Source: an uncultured Opitutales bacterium | GTDB taxonomy: Bacteria; Verrucomicrobiota; Verrucomicrobiia; Opitutales; Oceanipulchritudinaceae | Direction: 5' to 3' | Assembly (NCBI GenBank): GCA_913056355.1 | Contig: CAJXMX010000008.1 | Location: forward strand, 1 to 34,876 | DNA length: 34,876 bases | Part shown: positions 11,791-26,502 of the stretch, piece by piece | How positions within the stretch are numbered: position 1 is the stretch's first letter | Layout of the letters: each line of letters starts with the position of its first letter | Translations under genes and position numbers: made by a program | The notes under the pieces: generated by a model | Told to the model about the DNA's origin: nothing | The model's input: only the letters and a program-made list of their open reading frames with translations | Databases searched by the model: none

Positions 11791-12678
11791 ATGAGCGACG
11801 ACCAGAAAGACAAGTTTCCTCCCAAGGGAGAATCCCGTTCCACTTTCGAGGGCACCCGTTTTGATGATACCGACCTGCAGAAGGTCCACAGCCAATTGAT
11901 GCGGGAAAAGGAGGAGCCGTCGGAGAATTTCTCGCCGATGCCGCTCTTCTTCGTGGCCCTTTTCATGATTCTTTCCTTCTGGGCCGGTATTTACCTGGTC
12001 CATTATTCCGGGGACTTCGGGCCGTTTCATTACGACGAGACCAAGAAACCGGGGGCCGGCATCGAAGAGGGCCCGCGGGAAGTCGACATGATGGCCCTGG
12101 GCAAACGCATCTACAGCCAGAATTGCGTGGCCTGTCACCAGACTTCCGGTCTCGGCCTGCCGGGTGTATATCCGCCCCTGGTGGATTCCGATTGGGTGCA
12201 GGACACTCCAAACCGGCTGATCAAGATCGTCCTCTCCGGCCTGGCCGGGAAGGTGCAAGTCAACGGGCAGGAATACAACAATGCGATGACCCCGTTCAAC
12301 CGGCTCAGCGACCAGCAGATCGCGGCCGTCCTGACCTTTGTCCGGACCAGCCCGGAGTTCGAGAACGACTCCTACGCGGTCTCGGAAGACCTGGTCAAGG
12401 AAGTCCGCGCCGAGTACGGGTCCCGCACCGATCCCTGGTCGCAGCAGGAACTGGAAGCCATCCATGGCCCCGCCACCGGAGACTGGAAGCCGCCGGCAGG
12501 TGCTGAGCCGGCGGCGGACGAAGAGGCCTCGGCGGACGAAGAGGCCTCGGCGGAAGAAGAGGGTCCTGCGCCGGAAGAAGAGGCACCAGCGGAAGAAGCG
12601 GGTGATGAAGCCGGCGCCCCGGCGGAAGAGGGAAGCAGTGAAGAAGCTACCGGTTCGTCGGAAGGATCCGGTAATTAA
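11791..12678 (+). CDS. Monoheme cytochrome c, CcoP-like oxidase subunit with acidic Ala/Glu-rich C-terminal tail
   Basis: TM segment then single heme motif CVACHQTSGLGLPGVYPPL; tail PAADEEASADEEASAEEEGPAPEEEAPAEE...; downstream of ccoNO. Confidence 0.85.
   Translation: MSDDQKDKFPPKGESRSTFEGTRFDDTDLQKVHSQLMREKEEPSENFSPMPLFFVALFMILSFWAGIYLVHYSGDFGPFHYDETKKPGAGIEEGPREVDMMALGKRIYSQNCVACHQTSGLGLPGVYPPLVDSDWVQDTPNRLIKIVLSGLAGKVQVNGQEYNNAMTPFNRLSDQQIAAVLTFVRTSPEFENDSYAVSEDLVKEVRAEYGSRTDPWSQQELEAIHGPATGDWKPPAGAEPAADEEASADEEASAEEEGPAPEEEAPAEEAGDEAGAPAEEGSSEEATGSSEGSGN
12513..12562 (+). repeat. ~18-bp in-frame repeat encoding the ADEEAS-type acidic tail
   Basis: gcggacgaagaggcctcg repeated, with a third degenerate copy, inside the CcoP-like gene. 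Confidence 0.7.
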
Positions 12679-12775
12679 ACCCCTGGCCTGGTGAAGGATC
12701 CCGAAGGGATTTAAGGCATTAGCGCGGGGTGGAGCGGAGCGACGCCCCGGGAATCGGTGGCAATAAAAGTACCGG

Positions 12776-12821
12776 CCCCGGAGGGGTCGCAGCCAGGTCA
12801 GGTTCTGCGACCCCTCCGGGG
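12776..12821. repeat. 17-bp perfect inverted repeat (12-nt loop)
   Basis: ccccggaggggtcgcag (12776-12792) and ctgcgacccctccgggg (12805-12821) are exact reverse complements. Confidence 0.9.
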
Positions 12822-12850
12822 TCGTGTGTCTAAATTGATCGTCGCTACCC

Positions 12851-12874
12851 CGGGTCCCGCGTTCGCGGGACCCG
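12851..12874. repeat. 10-bp perfect inverted repeat with 4-nt loop
   Basis: cgggtcccgc-gttc-gcgggacccg. Confidence 0.9.
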
Positions 12875-12887
12875 CGGCTACCATGTT

Positions 12888-13027
12888 CGATCTCACCGAG
12901 ATCGTTCCGGCGGTTGCAGGATCTCTCTGAGATCGTTCCGGCGGTTGCAGGGTCTCACTGAGACCGTTCCAGCGTCTGCAGGGTCTCACTGAGACCGTTC
13001 CGGCGGTTGCAGGGTCTCTCTGAGGCC
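12888..13027. repeat. Array of five short hairpins at exact 31-bp spacing
   Basis: Hairpin stems begin at 12889, 12920, 12951, 12982, 13013: GATCTC-acc-GAGATC, GATCTC-tct-GAGATC, GGTCTC-act-GAGACC, GGTCTC-act-GAGACC, GGTCTC-tct-GAGGCC; linkers gttccggcggttgcag with few changes. Confidence 0.92.
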
Positions 13028-13044
13028 GTTCCTTGCGCGAAGCG

Positions 13045-13722
13045 TTAATCCCTCCGGGCCAGGGCCAGCATGTAGAGCAGGTTGGCCAGGGAGCTGACAA
13101 AGGCGGCGACGTATGTCAGCGCCGCGGCATTGAGGGTATCATTGACCCCCTCCATCTCATCCTGCTGGAGGATGCCGGTGGAGACCAGTTCCACCTTGGC
13201 CCGGCGGCTGGCGTCAAACTCAACCGGCAGGGTGATCAGCTGGAAGATCGTCAGGACCAGGTAGACCAGGACCCCGAGCTTGATCAGGCCCAGCATTCCG
13301 AAGAAAAAGCCGCCGATAATGATAAAGGGCAGCAGCTGGGAGGCGATCATGGTGACCGGGACCAGGCTCATGCGCAGCTTGAGCATGGAATAGCCGGTGG
13401 CATGCTGGACGGCGTGGCCGGCCTCGTGCGCGGCCACCCCGAGGGCGGCCAGGCTGTGCCCATGGTAGTTGGCCTCGCTGAGCACGAGCCGCTTGTTCTT
13501 CGGATCATAGTGGTCGGTCAGCATTCCCCTGGTGGCGGTGATTTCCACGTCGGTGATTCCCGCCTTCTGGAGCACGTAAAGGGCGGCCTCGCGTCCGGTG
13601 ATGCGGCTCCGCGACCCGACCCGGGACCATTTCTTGTAGGCGCCCTGAACCCGCGCCTGGGCCACAATCCCCAGGATGGCCGTCGGAATGATCAGGAAAA
13701 GGAAAATCTGCATGGTACTCAT
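13045..13722 (-). CDS. YugP-type zinc metallopeptidase
   Basis: 225 aa; HEAGHAVQHATGYSMLKLR zinc-protease motif, C-terminal TM segments, N-terminal TM. Confidence 0.9.
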   Translation of the reverse strand: MSTMQIFLFLIIPTAILGIVAQARVQGAYKKWSRVGSRSRITGREAALYVLQKAGITDVEITATRGMLTDHYDPKNKRLVLSEANYHGHSLAALGVAAHEAGHAVQHATGYSMLKLRMSLVPVTMIASQLLPFIIIGGFFFGMLGLIKLGVLVYLVLTIFQLITLPVEFDASRRAKVELVSTGILQQDEMEGVNDTLNAAALTYVAAFVSSLANLLYMLALARRD

Positions 13723-14421: not shown

Positions 14422-14480
14422 GCGGGTTACGGGTTGCGGGTTACTGGTTACTGGTTACTGGTTACGGATTGCGGGTTACC
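14422..14480. repeat. Short tandem repeat ggttac(t/g)g, heptamer type
   Basis: gcgggttacgggttgcgggttactggttactggttactggttacggattgcgggttacc; lies 6-65 bp upstream of the pyrE start codon. Confidence 0.85.
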
Positions 14481-14613
14481 GGGTTTACCCGGAGCTGTTC
14501 GAAAGGTTGCGGGTGGCCTTATTGGTGGGGTTTGCCGGGAGCTGTTCAACAAGAATTTCCAGATTTGCGGAATGTTCGTTGAAATGCGGGCGTCATGGTC
14601 CACATTTCCAGCC

Positions 14614-25206: not shown

Positions 25207-25659
25207 ATGGCCAATAGCTATGTCCGTCTGCTCATACACTGCGTCTGGAGTACAAAATACCGGCAAATGTGTCTGGCTGCAGAGTGGGAGGAAGCGTTAT
25301 GGCGCTACATAGCTGGATCCGCGAAGCGAAAGGGAATCCACCCGGTTCAAATTGGCGGAATTGAAAACCATGTGCATGCCTTGGTTGAGCCACCCAAGTC
25401 CATGAACATCCCCCAGCTGCTTGAGATTCTCAAAACGCCAGCCTCCAATTGGATTAATCGGACCGGGAGGGTTCCCGGGCAATTCCATTGGCAAGTTGGA
25501 TATGGAGCTTTCTCCGTAAGCCCGTCCCTTGCGCCCCGTGTGGCTCGCTATATCAGGAACCAACGGAAACACCACGAACGCCAAACCTTCGACGCGGAAT
25601 ACCGTCAATTAATCAAGCGTAACGGTATTCCTGCCAAGAGCCGCTACCTGCTTGATTGA
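25207..25659 (+). CDS. IS200-like Y1 transposase, REP-associated (RAYT) type
   Basis: 150 aa; HUH motif ENHVHALVEPP, WQVGYGAFSVSPS, candidate catalytic Tyr in ARYIRNQRKHHER; ORF appears intact. Confidence 0.9.
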   Translation: MANSYVRLLIHCVWSTKYRQMCLAAEWEEALWRYIAGSAKRKGIHPVQIGGIENHVHALVEPPKSMNIPQLLEILKTPASNWINRTGRVPGQFHWQVGYGAFSVSPSLAPRVARYIRNQRKHHERQTFDAEYRQLIKRNGIPAKSRYLLD

Positions 25660-25671
25660 GGTCGATGCATA

Positions 25672-25860
25672 GGCGCTGCGCGCCGGCCGACCGTAGCCGT
25701 GGTCGACCGAGCCCCTTGGGGCGAGGAGGCCACGGTCACAGTGGCGGTGGATGGCGAATTCGATGCCCCGCGTTTCGTGTTCCGTGTTCCGTGGCCTCGC
25801 CTTCCGGCCTGGCGGCCTGCCGGCGTCGACCACGGCTACGGTCGGGCGGCGCGCTGCGCC
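25672..25860. mobile_element. Nested inverted-repeat element (REP/BIME-like) adjacent to the RAYT gene
   Basis: 36-bp arms ggcgctgcgcgccggccgaccgtagccgtggtcgac (25672-25707) / gtcgaccacggctacggtcgggcggcgcgctgcgcc (25825-25860), reverse complements with 2 mismatches; inner arms gaggccacgg (25726-25735) / ccgtggcctc (25789-25798). Confidence 0.8.
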
Positions 25861-25869
25861 TTCGGGACC

Positions 25870-26502
25870 TCAGGTCATTTGTGCCAGGACCATCAGGAGG
25901 CTCTGGACCAGGCCCACGGCGAAACCGATGACGGCACCGAGGATCTCGATGCTGCGGAATTCCTTGTGGGCCAGTTTGCGGACGATGTCCTCCAGTTGGT
26001 CCAGATCAAAGGCGTGGATCTTGTCCTCCACGATTTTCCGCACCGCGATCTGCTTTTCGACCTCCATGGAGACTTTTTCCAGGAGCGGCTCGGTTTCCCC
26101 GACGATGCATTCCAGGGCGATCTTGTTGAGGTTGTAGAGGAGCTTGTCGTTGACCAGGTTGCCGAGAAGGGGAATGGCCCGGAGGCGCGGCGCGAGCCGG
26201 TCCCAGACGATGTTGGTGGCCAGCTGCTGCAGGTGCGGATGAAGGTCCATCTTGCGGATTTCCTCGCGGATCAAGTGCTGGTTGAAGAGCTCCGTCTCGA
26301 CAATTTCACCGACCCGGACCGCCATCTCCTCCTGACGCCGGGGAATCAGTCCCTGAACCGTCCAGAAGAGGATTTTCCTCGGCTTACGTGGACGGAAAAG
26401 CATCTGGATGGCCAGCCGGTTGGTCAGCCAGCCAATACCGGCCCCGATCAGGGGAAAGGCCACCAGTAAGAAGGCAATTTGCCATGTTTCGGGAATATCC
26501 AT
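25870..26502 (-). CDS. DUF445 family membrane protein
   Basis: GAGIGWLTNRLAIQMLFRPRKPRKILFWTVQGLIPRRQEEMAVRVGEIVETELFN typical DUF445 N-terminus; alternative start 26529. Confidence 0.88.
   Translation of the reverse strand: MDIPETWQIAFLLVAFPLIGAGIGWLTNRLAIQMLFRPRKPRKILFWTVQGLIPRRQEEMAVRVGEIVETELFNQHLIREEIRKMDLHPHLQQLATNIVWDRLAPRLRAIPLLGNLVNDKLLYNLNKIALECIVGETEPLLEKVSMEVEKQIAVRKIVEDKIHAFDLDQLEDIVRKLAHKEFRSIEILGAVIGFAVGLVQSLLMVLAQMT

Follow-up and report, generated by a model that had tools for sequence, protein, structure and literature searches.

The window analysed here, a stretch of 34,876 nucleotides from the draft genome of an uncultured Opitutales bacterium, carries a tandem array of small hairpins next to ccoP and yugP, two convergent genes (Table 1). 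Pfam matches and strand assignments bear out the first-pass annotation, which had placed the array between the 3' ends of a CcoP-like and a YugP-like gene. The two stop codons are 366 bp apart, and most of this interval is made up of palindromes. The array forms the outer end of a mosaic of about 350 bp (12698-13030). A search of the genome with the region found further copies of the left-half module at a number of places; the inverted pair of hairpin C modules, able to form a single stem of 17-20 bp, likewise recurs elsewhere in the genome. In the genome collection, the nearest named relatives of the YugP protein come from Opitutales and other Verrucomicrobiota. The 3' end of ccoP (12512-12603) codes for an acidic, Ala/Glu-rich tail by way of an 18/39-bp tandem repeat, and relatives have acidic tails too, with other sequence. 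Tandem repeats of seven-base units are also present, as CGGGTTA (8.9 copies) at 14423-14485 of the window and as degenerate GTCCTTA/GTCCTTC runs at L199 (2036-2207).

Table 1. Features of the ccoP-yugP region (window coordinates)
Feature	Position	Strand	Details
ccoP, CcoP-like cytochrome c of cbb3 oxidase	11791..12678	+	PF00034, PF13442
Left half of mosaic	12698..12753	+	small hairpin ATCCC-GAA-GGGAT and ATTAGCGCGGGG..CCCCGGGAA module
Hairpin C modules, inverted pair	12773..12824	.	CGGCCCCGGAGGGGTCGCAG / CTGCGACCCCTCCGGGGTCG, CGACCCCGGAGGGGTCG-type hairpins
Hairpin B of REP-like core	12848..12877	-	CCGCGGGTCCCGCG..CGCGGGACCCGGGG; also written CGGGTCCCGCG/CGCGGGACCCG
GTAG tetranucleotide	12878..12881	-	within GGTAGCC
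GTAG-proximal hairpin A	12888..12904	-	CGATCTC-GGT-GAGATCG, 7 bp
Hairpin A tandem array, five copies	12889..13030	.	31-bp period, linker GTTCCGGCGGTTGCAG
Array stems	12889-12903, 12920-12934, 12951-12965, 12982-12996, 13013-13027		
YugP-like zinc metallopeptidase	13045..13722	-	PF04298

Tandem Repeats Finder reports a 31-bp repeat at 12891-13032 (4.6 copies, 88% match, no indels) whose score of 214 is by a wide margin the highest in the window, and a hairpin script recovers five hairpins, each with a 6-bp stem and a 3-nt loop. Together with a direct read-out of the sequence, these results leave the hairpin count, coordinates, 31-bp spacing, stems and linker as first described. Lone hairpins of this geometry are frequent (132 in the window with G-T pairs allowed); the unusual feature is their periodic run, not the hairpins singly. 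The last stem had been taken to contain a G-U wobble, which holds if the + strand is the RNA; on the - strand the same position is a C-A mismatch. Among the array copies, a seventh, outermost pair is present only in the hairpin A nearest to GTAG, which is separated by five bases (AACAT) from GGTAGCC and then from the second, GC-rich hairpin B. The array linker contains neither GTAG nor CTAC. The exact array unit has no second place in its own genome and no match among 84,980 species genomes; as far as exact sequence goes, the array is therefore the one-off expansion that the first-pass annotation had weighed against a structural constraint. The genome is a draft of 425 contigs, so that assembly may have got the unit count wrong; the units are nonetheless sufficiently different that the array itself is no simple collapse.

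The hairpin nearest to GTAG belongs to an element that is scattered over the genome. A search with the whole region returned about 100 matching pieces, with modules at dozens of places, and the copies follow a common plan: hairpin A, usually five bases (for example AACAG or AACAT), GGTAGCCGCGGGTC, the remainder of hairpin B, and then hairpin C at a distance of roughly 25 bp. Dispersed copies of hairpin A have about 7 bp and a loop of mostly three bases, commonly GGA. The 14-base motif GGGTAGCCGCGGGT occurs exactly at 17 places and with at most one mismatch at 22, as against two for the reversed pattern; two of the 22 places (on C35 and C368) look like chance, which puts the element at about 20 copies. 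REP families often exceed 100 copies, so that dispersal is evident here on a smaller scale than in the typical large families. Five inverted motif pairs, about 155-220 bp apart, lie on C67, C128, C131, C147 and C190. At the loci inspected by eye, the copies are extragenic.

The element is a lineage-specific insertion, gained after the split from relatives of the same genus. Two genomes of that genus have ccoP-yugP gaps of only 27 bp (G003) and 48 bp (G002) where the window has 366 bp, from which it follows that the element was gained in the lineage of the window or, less likely, was cleanly lost in both relatives. The third, G001, does not enter this count: its short contig yielded no ccoP end to the script. 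The exact motif GGGTAGCCGCGGGT is absent from all three same-genus genomes and occurs at most once per genome in 132 relatives.

These properties inspire comparison with the GTAG-tagged palindromes, a described super-family that includes members in the verrucomicrobium Opitutus terrae and is common between convergent genes (PMC3733652). As in that super-family, we find a short, GC-rich palindrome that is tagged on one side by GTAG (the core at 12848-12881 of the - strand, GGTAGCCGCGGGTCCCGCG..CGCGGGACCCG), extragenic, dispersed, lineage-specific and often arranged in inverted pairs and clusters; the likeness to the O. terrae families is one of description, not a base-by-base match to published consensus sequences. 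The element differs in having a second, sequence-variable hairpin A outside the GTAG, at a near-constant distance of usually five bases. Only the inner hairpin of the array has a GTAG near it, not every array hairpin. Since the linker GTTCCGGCGGTTGCAG lacks the tetranucleotide, we class the core as REP-like and do not class the array hairpins as REPs. The first-pass annotation had presented the array as a stand-alone feature of no known repeat class; it proves instead to be one edge of a REP-like element with a GTAG tag, and elements of this class are already known in the phylum.

The arrangement of the modules also recalls BIMEs, in which spacers are unrelated and palindromes preserved (PMC2817692), and REPs that occur in tandem, evenly spaced or as inverted doublets, with compensatory changes (PMC3116915). 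One intergenic region holds the inverted hairpin C pair, hairpin B and the tandem hairpins A, and inverted GTAG pairs are found elsewhere. Shared with BIMEs and with tandem REP and REPIN clusters (PMC2817692, PMC3116915) are the mosaic of palindromes, the tandem copies with locus-specific spacers and the complementary changes that preserve the palindromes. In contrast to those clusters, the reiterated unit here is an accessory hairpin in a single orientation with a very short period of 31 bp, and, unlike the unit of canonical tandem REPs, it carries no GTAG. The ccoP-yugP site, with its one full GTAG element, does not show GTAG-REPs in strictly alternating orientation.

The claim that the two arms of the stems change together fares differently inside the array and outside it. 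Within the array, four of the six stem pairs are invariant, one shows a single double change (A-T to G-C, two of the five units against three, with neighbouring units sharing the change) and one shows a half change. When the array was shuffled, 357 of 500 shuffles matched the number of doubly changed pairs and 49 of 500 reached the covariation score; covariation within the array is thus weak and not above that of shuffles. The dispersed copies tell another story. In an alignment of 17 copies of hairpin A with a three-base loop (two copies with four-base loops and two more divergent ones were set aside), 98.3% of cells are paired and six of the seven pairs have changed on both sides, in 27 cells against 7.1 expected. 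None of 500 shuffles did as well, a figure that is not a probability because the copies are related by descent, and sliding the alignment as a control brought pairing down to 26-48%. Pairing in hairpin A is maintained as its sequence changes. This covariation could arise from selection on the folded strand or from templated correction of one arm by the other.

Hairpins of this type have been amplified at several other places. A survey of about 583 kb of genomic sequence, some of it picked around known copies, found arrays at no fewer than five other loci: C284 (34 bp, 3.7 copies), C293 (45 bp, 3.6 copies), C40 (30 bp, 3.5 copies), C65 (23 bp, 6.0 copies) and C67 (21 bp, 7.9 copies, bulged). 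Their spacers are locus-specific, and GGGTAG is present in most units of the C284 and C293 arrays. A two-unit version on C306, with a 32-bp period and a partly shared linker, places ATCCTGCAA as far from the hairpin as the window array does. Taken singly, the window's consensus unit has a hairpin score that is not extreme against shuffled units (p about 0.07), and the same holds for several other arrays; what links the arrays is therefore the common hairpin sequence and its position, not the shuffle test. In the window, C40 and C67 arrays, the stem is complete (7 bp) in the GTAG-adjacent copy and less well paired in copies further out. Units of the C284 and C293 arrays carry an uncompensated mismatch (CGATCCC/GAGATCG), of the kind that had been named beforehand as a mark of neutral duplication; with the uniqueness of the exact unit, this partly bears out one of the refuting conditions set in the first-pass annotation. 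Further afield, a covariance model built on hairpin A and GTAG was matched over its full length in genomes from further genera and families of the order (G037, G006 and G004). Inspection of these loci shows related GTAGCCGG double hairpins, which keep the two-hairpin plan in different sequence. In one genome of another family of the order (G037, contig C79), two arrays of 103-bp units (L036 727-1186 and 1391-2024; 4.4 and 6.1 units) contain the related double hairpin ATAGCCGGGGGTTGAGCGAAGCGATACCCCCGG.

Six genes for Y1 transposases (PF01797), a group that takes in IS200/IS605-type and REP-associated enzymes, are present in the genome, and one of them adjoins a GTAG pair. This gene, on C128, lies less than 500 bp from an inverted GTAG pair, with a hairpin C-like sequence on its other side; by a rough count, the chance that a GTAG pair falls so close to any of the six is about 0.03. 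Its product shows, by eye, an HVH sequence and the conserved tyrosine region. It scores as an IS200/IS605 transposase (60.8 bits, NCBIfam cut-off 55) and not as a REP-associated one, and is at most a candidate for the suspected cognate enzyme of the element. The only RAYT-like match in the NCBIfam scan (the Y1 gene on C16 lay outside it) was on C201 and fell short of its cut-off. Neither a transposition intermediate nor a target duplication was seen. The window itself has a Y1 gene of 150 amino acids at 25207-25659 (+), IS200/IS605-like and just below the NCBIfam cut-off; an inverted repeat containing GTAG, GCGCCGGCCGACCGTAGCCGTGGTCGACC, follows in its flanks (about 25671-25731 and 25831-25871), with similar ones on C29 and C284. 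At L064 (1257-1500) and L066 (871-1039), two more Y1 genes stand beside tandem arrays with periods of 56 bp and 47 bp, the units of which hold short palindromes (CGGCCTTTGGCCG and GGCCTCGAAGAGGCC, respectively), as though every transposase were matched with a palindrome family of its own.

We consider it very probable that the array arose when hairpin A, the outer hairpin of a REP-like mobile palindrome tagged by GTAG, was locally amplified in tandem, and that the intergenic region as a whole is a BIME-like mosaic. Speaking against this view are the array unit without GTAG, the copy number, which is low for a REP family, the score of the C128 enzyme as IS200/IS605, and the failure to see a transposition intermediate or target duplication. 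One could envision that the element spreads in single-stranded form, through the action of an HUH/Y1 transposase of the IS200/RAYT type. Cleavage by the REP-associated transposase TnpA-REP requires GTAG (PMC8266576). If the transposase reads GTAG together with the folded hairpin, stems would stay paired while their sequence drifts. Local duplication might then enlarge the arrays, whether by slippage, by unequal exchange or through rolling replication driven by the transposase, and distal copies would from then on be less constrained. Once transcribed, hairpins between convergent 3' ends may also impede exonucleases or assist termination; such roles have been proposed for other REPs and would here be a side effect. 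It is tempting to go further and to see a class of two-hairpin GTAG elements peculiar to Opitutales-like Verrucomicrobiota. The outer hairpin, variable in sequence and nearly always a paired triloop hairpin, would then serve the transposase as a second site of recognition, and tandem amplification would be a regular step of the life cycle, not an accident. We regard this extension as rather unlikely.

A different account of one step in this scheme, which leaves the identity of the element untouched, is that the stems owe their pairing to quasipalindrome-templated correction during replication and not to selection, in which case the covariation would be silent on function. Such correction is a known mutational process and would act on any palindrome of this kind. 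It explains neither the near-constant spacing to GTAG nor the better pairing of the GTAG-proximal copy; as the sole cause it seems improbable, and the two processes could act together.

The array might instead be a functional RNA in cis, maintained because its transcribed hairpins act from both sides on the ccoNOP and yugP messages, as terminators or stabilisers, or because the repeated triloops are recognised by a protein. The site between convergent 3' ends is typical of transcribed REPs (PMC3733652), the - strand folds more stably than shuffles (z -3.5) and its triloops read GGT, AGA and AGT. Against this, the array is missing from the ccoP-yugP gap of the two same-genus genomes, no intrinsic terminator was found, and no Rfam family matched at the gathering score anywhere in the window. 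The + strand fold is only slightly better than shuffles (z -1.9), and its loops vary (ACC, TCT, ACT). Moreover, the best folds of both strands join neighbouring units, as any tandem palindrome can, and do not form five separate hairpins. A cis-acting RNA is accordingly very unlikely to be what the array is.

Equally doubtful is a plain neutral duplication in which the hairpins are incidental and owe nothing to mobile palindromes. The uniqueness of the exact unit, the shuffle-like covariation of the array and the uncompensated distal stems of other arrays would all suit it. It is largely refuted by the dispersed copies: the inner hairpin belongs to a scattered element with strong covariation, and the same hairpin type has multiplied at several further loci. 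That the array itself grew neutrally would still agree with the amplification of a mobile palindrome that we favor.

The preference of the first-pass annotation for a nucleic-acid structure over coding stands, whether the structure reflects selection or a copying bias towards it, and the dispersed stems do covary. Coding is rejected: a 100-aa - strand ORF running through the array (12798-13100) has no Pfam match, and 31-bp units break the reading frame. A known RNA is also set aside (no Rfam family, with weak animal miRNA matches on hairpin C well below threshold), as is CRISPR, judged by the pattern of identical spacers and variable loops, which is the opposite of a CRISPR array.

The present case illustrates that a striking array of covarying hairpins can be the worn, amplified edge of a mobile palindrome and not a regulatory RNA. 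This small REP family from a little-studied phylum combines an unambiguous empty site with inverted pairs and a number of independent arrays, and would be useful for testing how BIME arrays grow.
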